Shown here one piece after another: positions 33,505 to 45,154 of a stretch of DNA of 54,193 nt. Numbering within the stretch: position 1 is the stretch's first letter; each line of letters begins with the position of its first letter. Location: positions 1 to 54,193 of the forward strand of contig JAMOVQ010000039.1 in NCBI GenBank assembly GCA_027067575.1, in the 5' to 3' direction. The notes under the pieces were generated by a model. That model was not told the DNA's origin and ran no database searches. It saw only the letters and a program-made list of their open reading frames with translations. A program made the position numbers and the translations under genes. Source of the DNA: Thermoanaerobaculia bacterium (GTDB lineage: Bacteria; Acidobacteriota; Thermoanaerobaculia; Thermoanaerobaculales; Sulfomarinibacteraceae).

Positions 33505-34842
33505 TCAGACCTGGTAACGCTCCATGAAGCCGGTGTGGAGGCGACCCTCGCGGAAGTCCCGGTCATCCAGGATCCGGAGGTGAAGCGCCAAGGAGGTCCG
33601 GATCCCCTCGATCTCCAGCGAGGTCAGCGCGCGCCGGCCCCGTGCGATGGCCTCCTCCCGGTCCCGCCCGTGAACGATCAGCTTGGCCACGAGCGAGTCG
33701 TAGTACGGCGGGATCGAGTACCCCGCGTACAGGTGGGTGTCAACACGCACCCCCGGACCGCCCGGCAGCGCGAGGAAGGAGACGCGGCCCGGCGAGGGTG
33801 CAAACGTCTCGGGATCCTCGGCGTTGATGCGGAACTCGATGGCGTGCCCGTTCGGGACGATCCGTCCCTTGGGGACCGTCATCCGCTGTCCCGCCGCGAT
33901 CAACAGCTGTTCCTTGACGAGGTCGACGCCGGTCACCATCTCGGTCACCGGGTGCTCCACCTGGATCCGCGTGTTCATCTCCATGAACGAGTACGTCCCG
34001 TCCGGTGCGAGGAGGAACTCCACCGTCCCGGCGCTGAGGTACCCGGCCGAACGCGCGGCCGCGACTGCCGCCCGCCCCATCTCCGCCCGCATCTCGGGCG
34101 TCAGGGCCGGCGAGGGCGACTCCTCCAGTAACTTCTGATGCCGCCGCTGGATCGAGCACTCGCGCTCGCCGAGGTGGATCACACGGCCGTGGGTGTCGGC
34201 CAGGATCTGGAACTCGATGTGCCGTGGCTGTTCCAGGTACTTCTCCAGGTAAATCGCCGGGTCCCCGAACGCCTTCTCGGCCTCGTTCCGCGCCGTGTCG
34301 AACGCCCGCTTGAGCTCCCGCTCGTCGTGGGCCAGGCGCATCCCACGGCCCCCGCCGCCTGCCGACGCCTTGAGAATGACCGGGTAGCCGATCTCCGCGG
34401 CGAGCTCCAGCGCCTCCCCCCGGTTCTGCAGCGGCTCGAGCGAGCCCGGCAAGACGGGGACGCCGGCTGCCGAGACCTTCTTCCGCGCCTCCGACTTGTT
34501 CCCCATCAGGCGAATCGCCGACGGCGGCGGACCGATGAAGGTCAGGCCGCACTCGTGGACGATCTCTGCGAAATGAGCGTTCTCGGCGAGGAACCCGTAC
34601 CCGGGATGGATCGCGTCGGCGCCGGTGATCTCGGCGGCGGCGATGACCGCCGTGATGTTGAGGTAGGAGTTCTGCGGGTACGGCCCGCCGATGCAGACGG
34701 CCTCGTCCGCCTGCCGGACGTGGAGACAGTCGCGGTCGGCCACCGAGTGCACGGCCACCGTCGCGATACCCAGTTCACGGCAGGCGGCGATGATCCGGAG
34801 CGCGATCTCGCCCCTGTTGGCGATCAGGACCTTCGAGAACAT
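33505..34842 (-). CDS. accC: Acetyl-CoA carboxylase, biotin carboxylase subunit
   Basis: This 445-residue ATP-grasp protein has the standard AccC length. Motifs are [90 protein letters not shown] and RINAED. It carboxylates the biotin on AccB in the first step of fatty acid synthesis. The ATG lies one base after the accB stop (TGAGATG), so the pair is translationally coupled. It is a separate copy from the propionyl-CoA-type biotin carboxylase at 20412. Confidence 0.95.
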
Positions 34843-34843
34843 C

Positions 34844-35350
<507 letters not shown>

Positions 35351-35364
35351 CGTGTCGGATCACC

Positions 35365-35718
35365 TCAGATGAACTCGGAGTGAAGCCGTGCCCCGGCAAG
35401 CCTGGACAGGAACCGCGCCTTCCCCTGGAAACCACCGGCCGCGAGCAACACGACGAGGAAGTAACCCGCCGCGATGGTCGTCAGGATGATCGTCAGGAGG
35501 TCGGCCTCCACGGTCACCTGGGCGAGCTCGCCGTGATCGAGCTCGCGGGCCGCCCGCTGGATCTCACGCACGACGGTGGAGTACTCGGCCGCCAGCTCCT
35601 CGAGCCGGCCGTCGTCGTCCACCGTCACCACCGGGATCCCGTCCGCGTCGATGATCGCGGCGCCCCTGGCGCCGGGACACCGCTGCACCACCTCACGGAC
35701 GACATCATCGAATACCAT
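35365..35718 (-). CDS. Roadblock/LC7-domain small protein
   Basis: This 117-residue protein has the Roadblock/LC7 (MglB-like) pattern. It has an amphipathic helix (MVFDDVVREVVQRCPG), a beta-hairpin (GAAIIDADGIPVVTVDDDG), a long helix (LEELAAEYSTVVREIQRAARE), and C-terminal strands (LAQVTVEADLLTIILTTIAAGYFLVVLLAAG). Such proteins dimerise and often act as GTPase-activating or scaffolding partners of MglA-type GTPases that control pilus polarity. No MglA is in the window. The start overlaps the 3' end of the TPR gene by 14 bases; ATG 35718 is taken, with GTG at 35724 as an alternative. Its place after the pil cluster suggests a polarity or assembly role, which is inference. Confidence 0.68.
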   Translation of the reverse strand: MVFDDVVREVVQRCPGARGAAIIDADGIPVVTVDDDGRLEELAAEYSTVVREIQRAARELDHGELAQVTVEADLLTIILTTIAAGYFLVVLLAAGGFQGKARFLSRLAGARLHSEFI

Positions 35719-36967
35719 GGTCACGACTCTCCGCGGCCAGTCTAACCGCGCGCATCCACCCCTGCAACCGCTCGATCTTCCGCTCAGCGAGCGTCGCCGC
35801 GCCCGCGCCCGTCTCGGCGGCACGGATCCGATCGGCAAGCGCGATCGTCTCCTCGGTCTCGCCCTTGAGCGCGACAACCTGCTCGAGCGTGCGCCGGGCC
35901 AGCTCCGGATCCCCCTGTTCCAGCGCGAGGCGCGCCAGCGTCACCGTCGGGAGCGGCATGCCCTCTGGAGTTCCAGGCGGCGACGAGGGCGCCGCGCCAT
36001 CCGGAACGGCCCCAACCTTCACTGCGGATTCGCCCCCCGGCTGGGCCATCTCGTCCCCGTCCGGCGGCAGTCCCAGCGTCTCCGGCCCCACTGGCGGAAC
36101 CTCGTCTGGCGCCCCCTCCACCGGCCACGGGTCCGGGGCCTCCACCGGCACTGCGGCAGCATTCCCCGCCTCCTGGGCCACTGGCCCGGCGGCCTCGGCA
36201 GCCGGTTCCCTGGCCTCCGTCTGCTCGGCCAGGACCAGCGGCTCCTCAGGTTCGAAGGGCGGGGCCTCCCCGGCACCCGGCGGCTCCGGGAGTACCTCCG
36301 GCGGTTCGGGCTCCCCGAACGGCCCCCCCGGCTCCGCGACGGGTTCGGGCGCGGTGGAGCTCTCCACCGCGAACACGTCGTCCTCCGTGGCCCAGACCCC
36401 CGTGTCACCCATGGGAGCGGACCGGAACGGATCCTCCCCGGAGGTGATCGTGACCACCTCGCGCGGTAACGCCGGACGAGGCATTCCTGCGGCGTTCCCC
36501 TCGAAGGCGGCGCCGGAACGAGGCCTTGCCTCCCCGGCCGTTGCGGACGAAACCGCGTCCGGCCCAGCCAGGTTCCGTTCGGCCTCGGCGATCCCCTCAC
36601 CGGCCTCGGCGTCTCCCGGGGCCAGGGCCAGCGTCAGGCGCCACGCGGAGAGTGCCCGGCGCCAGTCCCCCCGGCGGCTCGCGGCCCGTGCGATCAACCG
36701 GGCGGCCTCGGCGTTCTCCGAGTCCACATCGAGGGCCCGGGCGCAGGCCGTCTCGACGGCCCTGAGCTCGCCCCGTTCGAGCTGGACCCCCGCCAGCACG
36801 ACCCACCCCTCCGCAAGCCGCGGATGCCGGCGGAGACCCTCCTCGAGCACCTGGACGGCCTCGTCCAGCGCGCCGTCGTCGGCGAGAGCCCGGCCCAGCG
36901 CCACGAACTGGCGCGAGTCGGGATCCTCGGCGAGCACCCTGCGAAGTCGTTCGACGGTGTCGTTCAT
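35705..36967 (-). CDS. TPR protein with a long acidic Pro/Glu-rich middle region
   Basis: This 420-residue protein has three or four TPR-like repeats at about 3-140 (FVALGRALADDGALDEAVQVLEEGLRRHPRLAEGW and AVETACARALDVDSENAEAARL as parts). A Pro/Glu/Ala-rich region with no fold signature follows at about 150-345. A final TPR-like unit lies at about 350-405 (LARLALEQGDPELARRTLEQVVALKGETEETI). There is no signal peptide, so it is probably cytoplasmic. It starts 10 bases after the hairpin that ends the preceding gene and has no clear ribosome binding site. Its end overlaps the Roadblock gene, so the two products may work together. Function unknown. Confidence 0.65.
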   Translation of the reverse strand: MNDTVERLRRVLAEDPDSRQFVALGRALADDGALDEAVQVLEEGLRRHPRLAEGWVVLAGVQLERGELRAVETACARALDVDSENAEAARLIARAASRRGDWRRALSAWRLTLALAPGDAEAGEGIAEAERNLAGPDAVSSATAGEARPRSGAAFEGNAAGMPRPALPREVVTITSGEDPFRSAPMGDTGVWATEDDVFAVESSTAPEPVAEPGGPFGEPEPPEVLPEPPGAGEAPPFEPEEPLVLAEQTEAREPAAEAAGPVAQEAGNAAAVPVEAPDPWPVEGAPDEVPPVGPETLGLPPDGDEMAQPGGESAVKVGAVPDGAAPSSPPGTPEGMPLPTVTLARLALEQGDPELARRTLEQVVALKGETEETIALADRIRAAETGAGAATLAERKIERLQGWMRAVRLAAESRDHGIR

Positions 36968-36970
36968 GGC

Positions 36971-37006
36971 ACGAAGAAGGCCGCCCGGTCCGGAGACCGG
37001 GCGGCC
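36971..37006 (-). terminator. Hairpin terminator after the IPT-repeat lipoprotein gene
   Basis: A perfect 12 bp stem (GGCCGCCCGGTC / GACCGGGCGGCC) with a 4-base loop, followed on the minus strand by TTCTTCGT. The weak T tract and the TPR start codon only a few bases on suggest partial read-through. Confidence 0.6.
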
Positions 37007-37016
37007 GGACCGGTCG

Positions 37017-39290
37017 TTACTGGCCGTTGCCCGTGACGTTGACCACGGCCGAGTCCTGGGCCCCGCACGCCCCGCCCACGGCGACGATCTGGATCGCGCC
37101 GCCGTACGGTACGGCGTTGGCCGGAGTGAAGGTGACCGTGACCTGGACCTGGCTACCCGGAGAGAGCGTTCCGGTGTCCGGGGAGACCGTGAAGCCGTCG
37201 GGCGGCGTCGCATTCCACTGGAAGGACAGGTCCTCGCCCGTGGTCCCATCGTTCCTGATGGTGAACTGCCACGTCGAGCTGCTGCCGACCGTCACGTTTC
37301 CGAAATCGTGTGACGTGTCACTGACACCCACCACGACCTCCTGGCAGGCGGTCACCGGCGGCACGAGGCTGAACGCCTGGTCCAGGGTGTCGCTACAGCC
37401 CGTGTCCAGGTTCTCCACCGTGACGTCCACCGGGCTCGCTACTTCCTGGCAACCGTTCTTGCCCGCGTTTCCGGTGCACTCGATGACATCGAAGTCGTAG
37501 GTCGAAACGTCCGGCACCGTGGTCTGGATCGTGTCCAGGTCGCCCGCGTTGGGGAACGTCGCGATCTGCGGCTGCAGGTCGTCGAACGTCACCCGAACGG
37601 CCTCCGTGGTATTTGCGACGGCGAAGTTCCGGCCCGAGACGGTGACCGTGTCGCCCGTCGTCCCCTGGCCCGGTGTCAGGTTGTAGATCCGGAGGTCCTG
37701 GCCACCGTAAGTGTACGACCCACCCTCGGCGGTCACGCCGGAGTCGATCTGGGTGACCCGGAACTGCCCGGCCACGTCGGCGCAGGGAACCGGGTCGGCC
37801 GCCCCGGTGACGATGACGATCTGGTTGCCAGAGACGGAGACCACCTGGGCCGGGATCGTCCGGGTCGCGCCACTACCGGGGATCCAGTCAACGGTCAGCG
37901 GTGCCCGGAACCCCGAGCCGAAGATCGTCACCTGGGTCCCGCCGGTGGGCGGACCCTCGGACGGGGCGTTGGAGGTGATGAACATGCTCTCGCCGTAGGT
38001 AAAGGCGCCGGGCAGGGTCGAAGTCAGGCCGCTGTTGACATTGCGGACGGTGACGTCGACGGTCACCGGCGGCGTCAGACCCGTCGGCGTGTAGTCCGGC
38101 GAGAGGCAGACGATCTGGTCGTACGCCACCGAGAGGACATCGGCCTCACGGTCACCGAACATCACCTGGGCCGGGAACTCGAACCCCGTTCCGAAGATCG
38201 TCACATGGGTCCCGCCCTCCATCGGCCCCGAGGTCGGCGAAACGCCGGTGATCTCGGGCTCGGGGTGATCTGCGGTGAAGACGAAACCGTTCGGGCGCGT
38301 CGCCGTCTTCTCGTTGCCGGTCCCCACGCCGCTGCGAACGGTGACGTCGGCGACGTGGTCGCCCTGCACCGGCTCCGCCGAAAGCGGTGGCGTGATCAGG
38401 GAAATCTGGGTCCCGTCGGCGGACAGTGCCACCTCCTGGGCCTGCACGGTCCCAAGATCCGTGGTGAAGCTGACCTCGACGGGCGACTGGAAGTTCCGTC
38501 CGTAGACGGTCACCTGATCGCCGCCCCGCGCCGTGCCTTGAGCGGGGTAAAGCGAGTAGATCTCGGGCTCACCCGTGGTATGCACGAACCGGAACGCGTC
38601 TTGGAGATTGGCCGTGTACGCCAGCCCCGGAATACCGACGACGATCGTCGCCAGGTAGTCCTGCGTCGGATCCGCCCCTGAGAGGGCCGGTGTTCTGACG
38701 AGCGCGGAGTGGTGATCCGCCGCAACGGAGACGACCTCCGCTTGGAAGTTGCCGAGTCCTGCCACGGAGAAGATCACCTGCATGTTGGTGGTGAACCCCG
38801 TTCCCGCGAGGTTGACGGTCTCGCCGCCGTCCTGGGAACCCTGGCTCGGCACGACGCCGTAGAGCGCCAGGACCTCGTCCGCCGCAAACGAGACGGTGAG
38901 CGTCGTCGTGGCCGACTGCGCGCGGACACGAATCGAGTAGTCGCTCGCCGTCGCCGAGTAGAACCGCGCGACGGCCTTGCCACCCGAGGTCGTCGTGGTG
39001 ACGCTGGTGGAGGAGGTCGAGACGAAGAACCCTCCGCCCTCTCCTGAGAGAACCGACGCCTCGAACGCCACGCCCGTCCCGTCCGGCGCAGCGGCTCCGT
39101 TCTTCTGGATCGTGGCGGTCAGCACGACGGTCTCACCGACGATCGGGGTGGCGGGCTGGGCCGTGAACGCCGAAACCGTCCACGTGTCGGTTGGCGGCGT
39201 CGGCGCGGCCGGGGCCGTGGGGCTGTCCCCCGAGCACCCCGCCATGAACGCGAGCGCCGCGACGATGACGAAAGGAAGTGCCTTCTTCAT
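37017..39290 (-). CDS. Lipoprotein with about five IPT/TIG repeats and a C-terminal Ig-like anchor-type domain
   Basis: This 757-residue protein has a lipobox FMAGC (Cys19) and a first Ig-like domain (about 36-135). It then has IPT/TIG-type repeats starting near 145, 245, 346, 437 and 535, each with a GGxxVxxxGxxF core (GGETVNLAGTGF, GGDQVTVYGRNF, GGTHVTIFGTGF, GGTQVTIFGSGF, TGDTVTVSGRNF). The last 100 residues (DFGNVTVGSSSTWQFTIRN) resemble an ASH-like domain. It should be an elongated surface or periplasmic rod. It follows pilQ by two genes and is probably co-transcribed with pilMNOPQ, pointing to a pilus or secretin accessory role that is not established. Confidence 0.78.
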   Translation of the reverse strand: MKKALPFVIVAALAFMAGCSGDSPTAPAAPTPPTDTWTVSAFTAQPATPIVGETVVLTATIQKNGAAAPDGTGVAFEASVLSGEGGGFFVSTSSTSVTTTTSGGKAVARFYSATASDYSIRVRAQSATTTLTVSFAADEVLALYGVVPSQGSQDGGETVNLAGTGFTTNMQVIFSVAGLGNFQAEVVSVAADHHSALVRTPALSGADPTQDYLATIVVGIPGLAYTANLQDAFRFVHTTGEPEIYSLYPAQGTARGGDQVTVYGRNFQSPVEVSFTTDLGTVQAQEVALSADGTQISLITPPLSAEPVQGDHVADVTVRSGVGTGNEKTATRPNGFVFTADHPEPEITGVSPTSGPMEGGTHVTIFGTGFEFPAQVMFGDREADVLSVAYDQIVCLSPDYTPTGLTPPVTVDVTVRNVNSGLTSTLPGAFTYGESMFITSNAPSEGPPTGGTQVTIFGSGFRAPLTVDWIPGSGATRTIPAQVVSVSGNQIVIVTGAADPVPCADVAGQFRVTQIDSGVTAEGGSYTYGGQDLRIYNLTPGQGTTGDTVTVSGRNFAVANTTEAVRVTFDDLQPQIATFPNAGDLDTIQTTVPDVSTYDFDVIECTGNAGKNGCQEVASPVDVTVENLDTGCSDTLDQAFSLVPPVTACQEVVVGVSDTSHDFGNVTVGSSSTWQFTIRNDGTTGEDLSFQWNATPPDGFTVSPDTGTLSPGSQVQVTVTFTPANAVPYGGAIQIVAVGGACGAQDSAVVNVTGNGQ

Positions 39291-39306
39291 GATGCCCTAC
39301 CCCCTG

Positions 39307-39867
39307 CTACTGTGCTGCCGCGTAGGAGAAGTTGAAGGAAACCGGGAACGGTCCGCACTTGATGCTCTTGCCGCTCACCGTCCTGCCGTAGATCTCGATC
39401 TTCAGGCTCTGCCTGATGTTCGACCGGCCGGTCTCCGGATCCGCCCCGCCGTTCTCGGGGTACAGGTTCGACAACGGCAGCTGGTGGAAATACTCCGCCG
39501 GGAAGACGCGGTAGTTGGTCAGGGTCGCGTTGCCACCCGCCGGAACGTAGACGTGCTGATCGATCTGCCACTGGGGCGAGGCCGTCGTACCGCCGTCTTC
39601 CCGGACCGGTGTGATCACCCACCGCGAGAGGTTGACGTCCTGGTTGCTCGTCAGGTCGCCGTTTGGTTCCTTCGGGTGGGACGTGATCGTCATGTTGTCG
39701 ATGACGACGTCGACGGGAATGGCGATGTTGACATCCGGCTGGTACTCGGTGATGTCCGCGGTCAGAAAGACGACGGCCTCGGTCTCGTTCATGGTGCTGT
39801 TGCCGCCGCATGACAGGGTGACGGCGAGGGCCACCGAAAGGACGATGATCGGCAGGGCACGTTGCAT
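39307..39867 (-). CDS. Predicted lipoprotein of unknown function next to pilQ
   Basis: This 186-residue protein has a type II-like signal peptide ending at Cys20 (VTLSCGG, a non-ideal lipobox). It then has a beta-rich region without a motif I recognise; TADITEYQPDVNIAIPVDVVIDNM and SRWVITPVREDGG are notable parts. It lies 13 bases after pilQ and 16 bases before the IPT-repeat lipoprotein gene, so it is in the pil operon. The start is the ATG at 39867, with GGGAGG 7 bases upstream; a GTG directly before it is an alternative. The product could be an outer-membrane partner of the secretin. Confidence 0.6.
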   Translation of the reverse strand: MQRALPIIVLSVALAVTLSCGGNSTMNETEAVVFLTADITEYQPDVNIAIPVDVVIDNMTITSHPKEPNGDLTSNQDVNLSRWVITPVREDGGTTASPQWQIDQHVYVPAGGNATLTNYRVFPAEYFHQLPLSNLYPENGGADPETGRSNIRQSLKIEIYGRTVSGKSIKCGPFPVSFNFSYAAAQ

Positions 39868-39880
39868 CACGCTTCCTCCC

Positions 39881-42337
39881 CTAGTACTTGACGATTCTCG
39901 GAGTGATGAAGATCAGCAGCTCGTCGTGCCGCTTGTTGATCTCCTTGCTCCGGAAGAGGGCACCGATGATCGGAATGTCCCCGAGACCGGGAACCTTGTT
40001 GTTCGTCGTCTGGTCGTTGACCTGGTAGATGCCGCCGATCACGGTGGTTCCGCCGTCCCGGACGAGCAGCTTGGTCGAGGCGTCCCGGGTCGAGATCGGC
40101 GCGTTGGTGGCCTGCTGCACGAGGAACGCCTGGAGTGGCTCGCGCTTCGCGACCTTGAGGTCGAGCATGACAGTCCCCTCCGCCGTGATCTGCGGTGTGA
40201 CGTCCAGGCTCAGCGTGGCGTCCACGTACTGCACCGTGACGGTGTTGTTGGCCACCGTCTGCACCGGCAGCTGCAGGCCCGACCGGATTGTCGCCTTCTG
40301 CATGTTCTGAGCCAGGACCGTCGGCGAGGAGACGATCCGGACGAGTCCGTCGTTCTCGGCCGCCGTCAGCATGAAGTCCAGGTTGAAGGTGTTGAGGATG
40401 TCGCCGAACGAGAACCCGATCAGGCCGCCGCCACCGGCCCGCGTCCCGGGCTGGTACGGGAGCCCCAGGCTGACGCCACCATCGACGTTGACGCTGTTCG
40501 GGAAGTTCAGGCCCGTGTCGTTGCCGTGCGCGGCGTCCATGACCCCCGAGAACCCCCAGTTGATCCCGAGCTTGTGGGAGAAGTTCCGGGTCGTCTCGAC
40601 GATCCGGGCCTCGATCATCACCTGAGGAACCGGCTTGTCCAGCTGGGCGATCAGCTTGAGAATCCCGTCCACACGATCGACGGTGTCCCGGATGATCAGG
40701 GTGTTCGTGCCCTTGTCGACGATCACCGAACCTCGCTGGGACAGGAGGAACCCGTCCTTCGTGATGATGGAGGCGGCCTCGTTGGCCCTGGCGTAGGAGA
40801 GCGGCTTGACAACGGTCCGGAGCGGCTTCGTCATCTCCTGCTGCTCGTAGAGGTTCGCCTGGGCCGCCTTCTCCGCGGCCAGTTTCGAGATCGGGGCGAC
40901 CCGGAGCACGTTGTTCTCGAGCACGTAGTCCAGCCCGTTGATCTTGAGGATGAGGTCGAGAGCCTGGTCCCACGGCACGTCGTGAAGCTCCACCGTCACC
41001 GACCCGCTCACACCGGGATCGACGACGATGTTGAGGCCCGTCAACTCGGAGAACGTCCGGAGAACGTCGGTGATGTCGGCGTCCTTGAGGCGCAGCGAGA
41101 TCGGCTCGCCCGTGTAGTGTTTCTCCTCGGTCTGGACCTCCTTCGTCTGGTACTGCTCTGGGGTGGGCAGATCGAGCTCCTGTGCCCCGACCGCCCTCTC
41201 AACGAGCTGCGACTCGTCCGCGGTGAACGGATCGCTGGAGACGGCCGACCGGTCCGTTCGGGCCGGCTCCGCCTGTGCGGAGGGCACGGCGGAGGGCACT
41301 GGCGAAGGCGTATCGGCGCGCAGGCGGGCGCCCCCCTGGAGAGGTCCCTGGTCCACGGAACGGGACCGCGAGATCTCGATGGTCCCCGCCGGCAGCGCAT
41401 CGATCCGCGCCGGGGCCGTCGACACGGCGTGGTCCGCACGCCGCGAGGTGGCCGAAGCCGGCCGCGGAGCGTGCCGCGCCGGGGCCGTCGCCGGGACGGC
41501 CTGCACCGGGACACCGTTCCCTCCGATCGTCACCACCGCGCCGTCCACCGTGGGCCTCACGGTGTACTCCACCGGCCGGTCGAGATCGACCACGAGGCGG
41601 GTCACCGGGTCGGGAACCGCCCGGTGCTGTGCCACACGAACCCTGCGGACAACACCGTCGGCAACGGGGATCACGTGACGGTTCACCCGGCAGACCACCC
41701 CTCGCAGATCGACGACGATCCGCTCGGGGTCCGGCAGCCGGAAGGTATGGAGATCGAGCGCCCCATCGCCCTCGAGCCGGATCGTCAGCCCACCGGATCC
41801 AGCCTCGGGAACGACATCCAGGAGGTTCTTCCCGGACACCGCCCCGGAGGAGACGGGCTGCGGGGCGACGGGCTCCACGGAGACGGTGGCCGTAACCGGC
41901 TCGGTGACGCCGGCAGCCGGAGTCTCCGCCTTCGGATCGGTGAAGACGAGATCGAACCCATCGTCGCGATCCTCGAGCGTCATCGCCATCGGCCGGCCAA
42001 GGGTCACGGTCAGCCGTGTGAGCTTCTTCCCGAACTCCTCGACCTCGGCGGCCTCGGCGCGCTCGATCCCCAGCTCCGGAGCGCTGACCGCTGGAACCGG
42101 GGCCCAGGCGCCTTCCGGCATCTCCACCAGCCACACACCGGGCCGGGGACTGTAGGCGACGGTCTCCAGGCGGGCCGATGCCCGAACGTGAAGCACGGGC
42201 CCCGAGTCTCCGGACCCAGCGGTGATCGCAGTGAGCACCGGGACCCCATCGCCGGACACCGCGAACGCACTCGCGGCACCGAGCGCCAAACAGGCTGCTG
42301 CCACCAGGACGAGGACGCGGGCATGTCTGACCATCAT
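39881..42337 (-). CDS. pilQ: Type IV pilus secretin PilQ
   Basis: This 818-residue outer-membrane secretin has a signal peptide (about 1-26). Two AMIN-type domains follow at about 35-130 and 165-270 (LEGDGALDLHTFRLPDPERIVVDL), then a Pro/Ala-rich linker, an N0/STN domain (about 395-460, ISLRLKDADITDVLRTFSEL), N1 and the secretin core. Parts of the core include VPQVMIEARIVETTRNFSHKLGI, ASTKLLVRDGGTTVIGGIY and VPGLGDIPIIGALFRSKE-type segments. The C-terminus IFITPRIV is standard. It forms the pore through which the pilus leaves the cell. Two adjacent ATGs (42337, 42334) follow GGGGGA; pilP ends 19 bases upstream. Confidence 0.95.
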   Translation of the reverse strand: MMVRHARVLVLVAAACLALGAASAFAVSGDGVPVLTAITAGSGDSGPVLHVRASARLETVAYSPRPGVWLVEMPEGAWAPVPAVSAPELGIERAEAAEVEEFGKKLTRLTVTLGRPMAMTLEDRDDGFDLVFTDPKAETPAAGVTEPVTATVSVEPVAPQPVSSGAVSGKNLLDVVPEAGSGGLTIRLEGDGALDLHTFRLPDPERIVVDLRGVVCRVNRHVIPVADGVVRRVRVAQHRAVPDPVTRLVVDLDRPVEYTVRPTVDGAVVTIGGNGVPVQAVPATAPARHAPRPASATSRRADHAVSTAPARIDALPAGTIEISRSRSVDQGPLQGGARLRADTPSPVPSAVPSAQAEPARTDRSAVSSDPFTADESQLVERAVGAQELDLPTPEQYQTKEVQTEEKHYTGEPISLRLKDADITDVLRTFSELTGLNIVVDPGVSGSVTVELHDVPWDQALDLILKINGLDYVLENNVLRVAPISKLAAEKAAQANLYEQQEMTKPLRTVVKPLSYARANEAASIITKDGFLLSQRGSVIVDKGTNTLIIRDTVDRVDGILKLIAQLDKPVPQVMIEARIVETTRNFSHKLGINWGFSGVMDAAHGNDTGLNFPNSVNVDGGVSLGLPYQPGTRAGGGGLIGFSFGDILNTFNLDFMLTAAENDGLVRIVSSPTVLAQNMQKATIRSGLQLPVQTVANNTVTVQYVDATLSLDVTPQITAEGTVMLDLKVAKREPLQAFLVQQATNAPISTRDASTKLLVRDGGTTVIGGIYQVNDQTTNNKVPGLGDIPIIGALFRSKEINKRHDELLIFITPRIVKY

Positions 42338-42356
42338 TTCATCCCCCACTCGTTGA

Positions 42357-42890
42357 CTACTTCTGTCCAATCTCACGCACAACCTCAGTGTACGGCTTCA
42401 AGGCCTTCGGATCACTGACCTGCTGCTTGAAGACGATCTTGTCCGGAAGGATCTTCTCAACCTCGCCGTTGTAGAGCTTCGTGCCGGGCTTCAGTGTGTA
42501 GCTGAGATTGTCCCGGCTGTTCTGGGCGAAGGCGATGATGCCGTCCGGCGTCTCGATGACCCCTTCGACCCGAAGCTCCTCGATCATGGTTCCAGGAAGG
42601 CCAGGCGGCCTGCTGGTGGACCCGGCCCCCTCCTGGACCCCATCGCGGAGCGAGCGGAACGGATCCCGGCGGCCGGCCGGGTCGTAGAAGAAGATCTCGC
42701 CCTGCATGACCCGCTCTTCGCCGCGGAGGATCCTGTCGATCTGCGAGACGTCGATGCTCTGGCCCTCCTCGCCCGCGGCGGCCGCCGCCTCGTTCTTCGC
42801 CCCCGCACTGTCCTCCTGGGCGCGGAGAGGCCCTGCGGCCACAAGGACGATCGCTGCGGCGATGACGGTCACCGGACCGATCCGGTTCAT
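42357..42890 (-). CDS. pilP: Type IV pilus assembly protein PilP
   Basis: This 177-residue protein has an N-terminal signal or anchor segment (about 5-24) and a linker. The PilP motif YDPAGRRDPFRSL follows at about 69-81, then the small beta domain (LRVEGVIETPDGIIAFAQ, GTKLYNGEVEKILPDKIVFKQ). PilP links the PilMNO inner-membrane platform to PilQ. It lacks a lipobox Cys, unlike the lipoprotein PilP of Neisseria and Pseudomonas. The ATG overlaps the pilO stop by 4 bases and has GGGAGG upstream. Confidence 0.92.
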   Translation of the reverse strand: MNRIGPVTVIAAAIVLVAAGPLRAQEDSAGAKNEAAAAAGEEGQSIDVSQIDRILRGEERVMQGEIFFYDPAGRRDPFRSLRDGVQEGAGSTSRPPGLPGTMIEELRVEGVIETPDGIIAFAQNSRDNLSYTLKPGTKLYNGEVEKILPDKIVFKQQVSDPKALKPYTEVVREIGQK

Positions 42891-43471
42891 TGTGCACCTC
42901 CCGCGGTACTCTCTTCTTCCTTGTAGACGAAGGTCCGCATCGTGAACGTGGCCTGAATCGTGTAGTTGTCCCGCTTCCCCTTGAACGGCGAGATCGTCAG
43001 GTCGTCCACGTTGATGATCCTGGAGAACCGGCTCAGCCGGTCGAACAGGAGCCCGAGCTCGTGGTACGTCCCCCGCAGACTGACCTGGATCGGCCACTCC
43101 CAGTAGAAGTCCTTGTCGGCAAACTCACCAGGCCGGAAACGGATCAGCTGGAAGCGGCCCCGCTCAGTCAGCTGCTTGAGCTTCTTGATCAAGTCATCGG
43201 TCTCCCGCTTGGTCGGAAGGATCCGGCGGAGGCGGTCCAGCTCGATCTCGAGGTTCTGGATCTCCTCCTCGAGCTTTGGCAGGTTCTTCTTCGCGGTCCG
43301 CCCCTTCTCGACCTCGCGCTGCAGCTTCTCGATCGACTCCTCGGTCCGTCCGATCTGCTCCCGGAGATCCTTGAAATAGTAGTGATTGACCGCGAACAGG
43401 AGCGCGAGGCCGATTCCGAGCCCGACCGCAAGGGCCACGTACCAGGGCTTCTCGTTGAGATCCAACGCCAT
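42887..43471 (-). CDS. pilO: Type IV pilus assembly protein PilO
   Basis: This 194-residue protein has a short cytoplasmic start and one membrane helix (about 11-30). A coiled coil follows at about 35-105 (IGRTEESIEKLQREVEKG, LEEEIQNLEIELDRL) and then a ferredoxin-like domain (WPIQVSLRGTYHELGLLFDRLSRFSRIINVDDL). It pairs with PilN. It sits 3 bases after pilN and overlaps pilP. Confidence 0.93.
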   Translation of the reverse strand: MALDLNEKPWYVALAVGLGIGLALLFAVNHYYFKDLREQIGRTEESIEKLQREVEKGRTAKKNLPKLEEEIQNLEIELDRLRRILPTKRETDDLIKKLKQLTERGRFQLIRFRPGEFADKDFYWEWPIQVSLRGTYHELGLLFDRLSRFSRIINVDDLTISPFKGKRDNYTIQATFTMRTFVYKEEESTAGGAQ

Positions 43472-43474
43472 GGC

Positions 43475-44092
43475 TCAGCTCCTTCCCCCGGCCCCACCAC
43501 GGGCATCTTCACCCTCCCCCCCCTCGACGGTCGGGGTGAAGTGGAAGATACAGGTGAGACTGAATCTGTAGCCGCCCTTTCCGTCCCTGCTCAGATCCTT
43601 CAGGACCGGCTCGGAGAAGAAGGGCGACTGGTCCAGATTCGTGATGTAGTTCGCCACGGCGTTCTCGTCCATGGCAACGCCGTTCAGCTCCACGACGGAA
43701 CCTTTCAACGTCATCTTCGTCAGCCACACGAGATCCGGGAGAGCCTTCGAGACCTCATCCATCACCCGCACCGGTCCGTGCTGCTTCTCCTTGAGATCGT
43801 TGATGATGTCGATCCGCTCCTTGAGCGTCGCCCGCTTCTTCTCCAGCTCCTCGACCTTGTCGATGTACTGCTGAAGCTGGTCCCGCTCCCGCCTCAGGCT
43901 GGACTCCTGGGCGCGGAGCCTGTCGAGCTTGCTGCTCAGCTGCCACCACATGACGCCGACGACGATCATCGAGAGCAGGAGCGCACCAAGGAGGATGATG
44001 TCACCCTGGCGGGCTCCCAGCGAGATCTCCGGGCGCTTCTTCTTCGTCGCAGCCTGTGCGGTCGGTTCGCCGATCAGGTTGATCTTGATCAT
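43475..44092 (-). CDS. pilN: Type IV pilus assembly protein PilN
   Basis: This 205-residue protein begins with the conserved cytoplasmic INLIGEP motif that docks into PilM. It continues with one membrane helix (about 30-51), a coiled coil (about 52-100) and a ferredoxin-like periplasmic domain (ALPDLVWLTKMTLKGSVVELNGVAMDENAVANYI). The C-terminal tail is Gly/Glu/Arg-rich. It starts 3 bases after pilM. Confidence 0.94.
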   Translation of the reverse strand: MIKINLIGEPTAQAATKKKRPEISLGARQGDIILLGALLLSMIVVGVMWWQLSSKLDRLRAQESSLRRERDQLQQYIDKVEELEKKRATLKERIDIINDLKEKQHGPVRVMDEVSKALPDLVWLTKMTLKGSVVELNGVAMDENAVANYITNLDQSPFFSEPVLKDLSRDGKGGYRFSLTCIFHFTPTVEGGEGEDARGGAGGRS

Positions 44093-44095
44093 CGA

Positions 44096-45154
44096 TCACT
44101 CCCCGACGGTTCTCATGGCCAGGCCAACCGCGATCGCCATGGACGGCGCGTGACGGTTGATCCACTCGGGATCGAACTCCGACTCGTCGTACCGGATGTT
44201 CCGGAACGGGTTCATCACCTCCACCGGAACCTGGAACCGTTCTTTCAGGATCTCATCGAGTCCCAGGAGCTGACTCCCGCCCCCCGCAAGCACGAGCCGG
44301 TCGAGACTGTCCACGGAGGACGTGGCGACGAAGAAATCGATCGTCTTCTGGAGCTCGGCCGCAAGATCCTCGGAGACGCTGTTGACCACCCCGAGCACCT
44401 GCTGGATCGACCGTTCTCCGACCCGCTCACCCCGCTTCAGCCGCTCCGCCTCCTCACGCGGCAGGTTGAGCTCCCGCTGAATCGCCTCCGTGAACTGGTT
44501 GCCACCGAAGGAAACATCCCGCCAGAAGACCGACTGCCCCTCGTGGAGCACGTTGATGTTCATCACGGACGCCCCGATGTTGACCAGGGCGATGGCCTCG
44601 GGACCGAGCTCGTAGTTGAGCTCGTAGGCGTTCTGCAGCGCGAAGACGTCCACGTCGACCAGCGCGGGCTGCTTCCCGGCCTGAATCAACACCGAGGTGT
44701 AGTCGGCGATCTTTTCCTTCTTGACCGCCACGAGGAGGACGTCCATGGTCTCGCCCTGGCCCTCCTCCAGCACCACGTAATCGAGGTTGACCTCGTTGAT
44801 GTCGAACGGGATGTACTGCTCCGCCTCCCACTGGATCGATTCCGCGAGCTCGGCCTCGCTCATGGAGGGCAGCGGAATCTTCTTGAGGATCACCGAATGC
44901 CCGGAAAGCGAGGTCCCGAAGTTCGGGTTCTTGATCCCGTTGTCGGCGATCAGCCGGGAGAGCGACTCGACCACCAGGGAGGAGTCCATGATGGCGCCGT
45001 CCACGATCGCCTCGGAGGACAGCTCCGCGATCGCCGCGTTCGCCAGCTGGAACTCGCCGTTCTTCAGGGGTTTCAGCTCGACGACCTTGATTGCCGAGGA
45101 GCCGATGTCGCAACCAACGATTTGTTTCTTGCGTTTCCCAAACACGGCTCGCAC
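44096..45154 (-). CDS. pilM: Type IV pilus assembly protein PilM (actin-like ATPase)
   Basis: This 352-residue actin-fold protein has VGCDIGSSAIKVVELK at the start (phosphate 1), SLSGHSVILKKIPLPSM, EAEQYIPFDINEVNLDY, VNIGASVMNINVLHEG, and GGGSQLLGL (adenosine motif). It binds the PilN cytoplasmic tail on the inner face of the membrane. It is the first gene of pilMNOPQ. The start is GTG at 45154, without a clear ribosome binding site; an internal GTG at 45145 is possible. Candidate promoter elements just upstream are weak. Confidence 0.94.
   Translation of the reverse strand: MRAVFGKRKKQIVGCDIGSSAIKVVELKPLKNGEFQLANAAIAELSSEAIVDGAIMDSSLVVESLSRLIADNGIKNPNFGTSLSGHSVILKKIPLPSMSEAELAESIQWEAEQYIPFDINEVNLDYVVLEEGQGETMDVLLVAVKKEKIADYTSVLIQAGKQPALVDVDVFALQNAYELNYELGPEAIALVNIGASVMNINVLHEGQSVFWRDVSFGGNQFTEAIQRELNLPREEAERLKRGERVGERSIQQVLGVVNSVSEDLAAELQKTIDFFVATSSVDSLDRLVLAGGGSQLLGLDEILKERFQVPVEVMNPFRNIRYDESEFDPEWINRHAPSMAIAVGLAMRTVGE

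Follow-up and report, generated by a model that had tools for sequence, protein, structure and literature searches.

Directly behind pilQ, in the type IVa pilus operon pilMNOPQ of a Thermoanaerobaculia bacterium (phylum Acidobacteriota), lie two lipoprotein genes, here called LP1 and LP2. That both belong with pilQ, as a matter of genomic association, is well supported. The window analyzed is a contig of 54,193 nucleotides (JAMOVQ010000039.1; C39 of our genome G000, which comprises 3.08 Mb in 191 contigs). Its minus strand carries pilMNOPQ from 45154 to 39881, then LP1 (186 amino acids, aa) and then LP2 (757 aa). The gaps are exactly 13 bases between pilQ and LP1 and 16 bases between LP1 and LP2; the open reading frames (ORFs) are as the original prediction described them, and both products have a lipobox cysteine. 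We put at about even the chance that the two belong to the PilQ complex as lipoproteins of the outer membrane, with LP1 as a secretin accessory and LP2 as a modular stalk. The basis is how the genes are ordered and conserved, their co-occurrence with PilQ, the lipoboxes, the predicted folds, exchange of modules and one gene fusion, and it is from these that we infer PilQ binding, membrane side and role.

Conservation of the Pair beside pilQ

LP1 was surveyed across Acidobacteriota. A search of the genome contigs with the single LP1 sequence gave no match, and an alignment-based search then gave 23 loci. In the family of the window's genome, LP1 is present in 19 of 20 genomes (the window's own included), and the order PilQ, LP1, TIG protein is kept in 19/19, with LP1 on the same strand as pilQ. 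At the level of the class (23 + 30 loci, the 23 presumed to belong to it), a TIG protein stands behind LP1 in 53/53 loci and PilQ ahead of it in 52/53; the sole locus with no PilQ ahead (L058) begins at a contig end. The 30 loci include the window and four genomes of the family set, and some of the 23 probably duplicate genomes; the class loci are therefore not all independent.

Across the phylum, a first LP1 profile matched 42 of 396 genomes. From 40 genomes, in most cases a single one for each family, we took the sequence that follows pilQ, and we ran an iterated LP1 profile over 6364 ORFs from 93 loci. LP1 was found directly behind pilQ in 33 of the 40 loci, and all matches below 1e-3 are at that place. 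E-values when first seen, in the first or second round, ranged from 2.4e-3 to 5e-26, later ones being inflated by inclusion. One weak match, in L089 (E 0.0097), is positioned inside pilQ and was dismissed as chance. A 41-member LP1 profile matched 165/396 genomes (141/338 when only the good ones are counted), with matches in 115 of the 210 genera sampled. Among the matches listed, LP1 is directly downstream of PilQ on the same strand in 100/100 genomes, with a median gap of 29 bases, in a comparison made over the genomes for which the places of both LP1 and PilQ are listed (102 LP1 entries). The two extra entries sit elsewhere, one at a contig edge (G257, C5) and the other on C298 of G024. The latter (G024:C298:2590-3123) is an additional and divergent LP1 in that genome, not at the place listed for PilQ.

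The original prediction held that a failure to find the pair beside pilQ in relatives would speak against it, and the neighborhood survey found the pair conserved there in family and class and LP1 in place in every phylum genome with both LP1 and PilQ listed. It had also presented the pair as an extension of the standard pil operon. This is correct in that two genes are added, but the arrangement is common in the phylum and no oddity of a single genome.

PilQ exceeds its cut-off in 297/396 genomes against 165/396 for LP1, which makes LP1 common but not universal. Fifty PilQ genomes among the matches listed have no LP1 among the matches listed, and some of these nonetheless have LP1. PilQ is found at E ≤ 2e-92 in 161 of the 165 LP1 genomes (tables read by eye); the four with weak PilQ (G067, G109, G177 and G372) are broken-up assemblies. 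Within the class, LP1 is present in 33 of 47 genomes, and the 14 that lack it all come from one genus (f7/g20), which has no pilQ over the cut-off and reaches no better than 1e-21 to 1e-24 in its secretin matches. Loss of LP1 together with PilQ is the behavior expected of a pilus part.

LP1, a Small Lipoprotein with a Predicted Ig-like Fold

LP1 lies at 39307..39867 on the minus strand when started at its ATG (39870 if at GTG). It matched no Pfam or NCBIfam family, in agreement with the earlier call of an unknown family, and constitutes an undescribed protein family with no name in either database; a PDB sequence search found no relative. Its lipobox Cys20 is invariant in 41/41 aligned members, so that LP1 carries the lipoprotein signal of secretin pilotins; the lipobox search pattern was permissive. 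Asp at +2, which in E. coli can retain a lipoprotein in the inner membrane (excerpted text of PMC10653833), is present in the sequence of neither LP1 nor LP2.

The AlphaFold model of LP1 (mean predicted local distance difference test, pLDDT, 90.3; core near 98) is an immunoglobulin (Ig)-like beta-sandwich, predicted all-beta except for the signal helix and short turns. Its closest solved folds, with a Z of at most 8.7, are generic Ig-like ones (TRAP-alpha, ApaG and transglutaminase C-domains). Among the fold matches listed there is no pilotin, which excludes nothing.

In one further locus, L079 (G021, family f16), a 176-aa lipoprotein at bases 615-1145 on the pilQ strand occupies the LP1 slot and is not recognized by the profile. 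Its C-terminal pattern is similar, and it is perhaps a very divergent LP1.

LP2, a Modular Ig-type Lipoprotein

LP2 (37017..39290, minus strand) encodes a 757-residue lipoprotein with lipobox Cys19. By Pfam and structure prediction, it is laid out as a Big_1-like N-terminal domain (about 37-137), five TIG repeats (about 142-642) and an ASH/HYDIN-like C-terminal Ig domain (about 650-757). All five TIG domains (PF01833) exceed the curated cut-off, which makes LP2 an IPT/TIG domain protein, and all five TIG matches found in the window's genome fall within this gene. The IPT/TIG rod that had been predicted is thus present, but it is not purely TIG, since both end domains differ. The predicted structure is a row of Ig-type domains (pLDDT 85) whose predicted template modeling score of 0.41 makes the relative placement of the domains unreliable; plexin IPT regions and other Ig rods are among the top matches of its fold search.

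LP2 of other class members is only 29-44% identical to that of the window, and the TIG-form LP2 proteins scanned carry 2 to 8 TIG stretches (6/6). Among LP2 proteins from 23 loci outside the class, TIG was found in 0/23, PKD in 11/23, BACON in 1/23 and Big_1 at E < 0.001 in 12/23 (two above the curated cut-off), while 4/23 matched nothing. We therefore rejected TIG as an essential feature of LP2; the weight that the original prediction placed on it was misplaced, and arguments resting on TIG itself are weak because TIG was seen in the window's class alone. At their N-terminal ends, LP2 proteins with and without TIG align by profile (hhalign 96.9%, E 1.8e-10), partly via signal peptide and linker, and the LP2 of L045 carries both TIG and a Big_1 match, the latter below the cut-off. 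LP2 is modular, with TIG in the window's class and PKD, BACON, Big_1-type or no array elsewhere.

Conservation is stronger for LP1 than for LP2. Among the 33 LP1 loci, 25 have LP2, one has a fusion (L086), six have no LP2 and one is undecided (L101); LP2 was assigned by eye in L099, L100 and L114, and a 62-aa call in L080 was discounted. The fusion belongs to family f27, where LP1 forms the N-terminal part of a longer lipoprotein with about three Ig-like repeats (L086 of G142, 626-1966, 445 aa; repeats counted by eye), and long LP1 frames occur in 5/5 f27 genomes. Such a fusion speaks for joint action of LP1 and the rod.

LP2, with LP1 as its base, could also be a surface adhesin or coat at the pilus pole, used for attachment, in which case the pilus would matter only for co-expression and shared location. 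We judge this rather unlikely. Modules of the Big_1/Invasin_D3, TIG, PKD and BACON kinds are typically those of surface proteins, array type and length vary as they do in adhesins, and the identities within the class mark LP2 as fast-evolving. LP2 resembles surface proteins of the invasin/intimin type, and those built of TIG or PKD repeats, in having Big_1/Invasin_D3, TIG and PKD modules in rows. It differs from them as a lipoprotein encoded within a pilus operon, and Pfam shows no autotransporter part in it. Its domain types are only compatible with an adhesin, and the strict tie of LP1 to pilQ, as well as the retention of LP1 in loci lacking LP2, would be left unexplained.

Comparison with Known Secretin Partners

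The pilMNOPQ genes have the content and order of the known type IVa pilus operon, including a PilQ with AMIN and secretin domains. What differs is the addition of two lipoprotein genes behind pilQ, neither of which is named in the excerpted text of PMC4471445 or PMC10653833. The former source counts PilP, PilW, FimV and TsaP among the partners of secretins, PilW being almost exclusively proteobacterial, and describes pilotins as structurally diverse (PMC4471445); the latter describes Tgl in Myxococcus (PMC10653833). Listings of openly licensed PMC papers on Acidobacteriota type IV pili, pilQ, secretin and TIG/IPT showed no account of these genes, and an Ig-fold lipoprotein behind pilQ does not occur in the excerpted text of PMC4471445, PMC10653833 or PMC6668835. 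A term search of the main text of PMC6668835 found neither Acidobacteria nor lipoprotein.

Tgl/PilF/PilW are, like LP1, lipoproteins tied to PilQ, there by experiment and here by gene order alone. They are helical TPR proteins, whereas LP1 is predicted to be all-beta and Ig-like; with this prediction and no NCBIfam match, LP1 does not fall within their family (TIGR02521). TsaP and FimV bind peptidoglycan through a domain of the LysM type, and no LysM-type peptidoglycan-binding Pfam match was found in LP1 or LP2. According to PMC4471445, TsaP and FimV are accessories of the PilQ ring. GspS-like pilotins are likewise small lipoproteins tied to the secretin (PMC4471445), but had no sequence relation to LP1 in the PDB search.

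It is unlikely, in our view, that LP1 is the true PilQ pilotin here, in place of the TPR-type Tgl/PilF/PilW. The position of a small lipoprotein gene directly behind the secretin gene would suit a pilotin, as would the fact that known pilotins are mutually unrelated (PMC4471445), and PilW exceeds its NCBIfam cut-off in 0/60 class genomes. This last absence is too weak as support, because control genomes are likewise at 0/14 and TPR matches below the cut-off occur in 60/60 class genomes. Moreover, PilQ stops right after the secretin domain, with no extra C-terminal pilotin-binding segment evident, and the predicted fold of LP1 is beta, as opposed to the helical TPR pilotins.

The pil Genes and the Genes beyond LP2

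All genes of this locus are on the minus strand. pilM (44096..45154) matches PilM_2 (PF11104, 2.2e-80), pilN (43475..44092) matches PF05137 (1.5e-20) and pilO (42887..43471) matches PF04350 (7.1e-29). pilP, at about 42357..42893, matches PF04351 at 0.0059, below the cut-off, and was assigned from its position and from tblastn matches in relatives; the match is weak taken alone, yet the gene is correctly placed in the pil order. Its start was set at an internal ATG, the longest ORF beginning at 43097. The pilQ secretin gene (39881..42382 from a TTG, or from an ATG at about 42337) matches TIGR02515 (1.1e-117), PF00263 and PF11741, and Pfam divides its product into AMIN, N0/STN and secretin domains. 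With pilM, N, O, P and Q in order on one strand, the locus qualifies as a type IVa pilus assembly operon. The window's genome matches the PilQ model four times, which means that it contains other secretin-like genes as well.

Beyond LP2 lies a GC-rich, terminator- or 3′-end-like hairpin (36979..37006, minus strand) of 12 pairs, 11 of them GC, with no clean T-run. A stem of at least 9 pairs occurs right after the LP2 stop in 19/19 class loci (the window and 18 relatives; stems of 9-14 pairs), compared with 31/380 dinucleotide shuffles and 0/18 stretches after the LP1 stop. Hairpin sequences vary among these loci while the stem persists, and several have T-runs. This pattern supports the hairpin as a putative boundary of the pil-LP1-LP2 unit after the TIG gene. 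Outside the class the picture is mixed, as some LP2 genes have a hairpin and others lead straight into a TPR gene. A count of consensus terminators was dropped as evidence (6 sites vs 4.7 ± 2.3 in shuffles, not above chance). The first terminator that had been predicted after LP2 finds support in the conserved hairpin, and same-strand genes go on past it to 33505, namely TPR, Roadblock, accB and accC.

The gene for a TPR protein (35705..36967; TPR Pfam matches) is found downstream in 18/23 loci, four of the five misses ending near the TIG gene, and is followed by one for a Roadblock/LC7 (MglB-like) protein (35365..35718; PF03259, 1.1e-13). In many relatives the two (35365-36967) are found again in this order. 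Further on, at 33505-35350 on the same strand, are genes resembling accB and accC (for biotin carboxyl carrier and carboxylase), named by a look at the sequence; their order is the same as in many Acidobacteriota families. These two have nothing to do with pili and also come next in that order, which would fit LP1 and LP2 being envelope genes with no pilus link, in the operon by chance. Such a reading is very improbable given that LP1 stays directly behind pilQ, is missing where PilQ is missing in the class and is there parted, along with LP2, from accB/accC by the hairpin.

The Roadblock protein MglB regulates pilus polarity in Myxococcus, and because of this the TPR-Roadblock pair may, by analogy, be a polarity module tied to the pilus genes. 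MglA/MglB in Acidobacteria are mentioned in the excerpted text of PMC3983030.

Proposed Role of LP1 and LP2

As lipoproteins of the PilQ complex, LP1 and LP2 would be made from the pilMNOPQ unit, exported, lipid-anchored and collected at PilQ. LP1, as one compact Ig-like sandwich, would bind PilQ and aid its assembly or its retention in place, a job that unrelated accessory lipoproteins (Tgl/PilF/PilW, GspS) do elsewhere. LP2 would be its elongated partner. After a lipid anchor and a proline-rich linker it would continue through a Big_1-like domain into an exchangeable array of Ig-type modules (TIG here), the array building a stalk that surrounds the pilus portal or stands above it.

Several points weigh against this proposal. 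We infer contact between LP1 and PilQ from their genomic association, and the Ig fold of LP1 is generic (Z at most 8.7) and gives no functional clue. The iterated profile found no LP1 in 7/40 pilQ loci (G021, G046, G115, G060, G064, G223 and G303), and in family f35 PilQ exceeds its cut-off while LP1 was not detected behind it in both loci tried (L089 and L090), so that this family seems to be without the module; families f33 and f16 also gave no hit. Given such PilQ lineages with no detectable LP1, LP1 is not universally needed. LP2 is missing in 6/33 LP1 loci (L080, L092, L093, L104, L108 and L111). The shared absence of LP1 and PilQ in f7/g20 is probably one event, because it is confined to one genus, and the lack of PilW over its cut-off is weak for the reasons given above.

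A bolder form of the same proposal can be put forward tentatively. LP1 would be a new lineage-wide Ig-fold secretin partner replacing the proteobacterial TPR lipoproteins, with an exchangeable Ig rod that sets the reach or binding of the ring at the pilus exit; we consider this possible, though doubtful.

Secretin assembly and bracing are known mainly from Proteobacteria, and the helper lipoproteins described differ between systems. LP1, directly behind pilQ wherever both are listed and matched in more than half of the genera sampled, is a concrete and testable candidate for the secretin-helper job in Acidobacteriota, a major phylum of soils in which genetics is little developed. That LP2 has PKD modules in some lineages where others have TIG amounts to a natural experiment on the purpose of the stalk, and naming the LP1 family would better annotation. 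The presence of the pair behind pilQ, here and in many relatives, suggests that it is an undescribed part of the Acidobacteriota type IV pilus machine.

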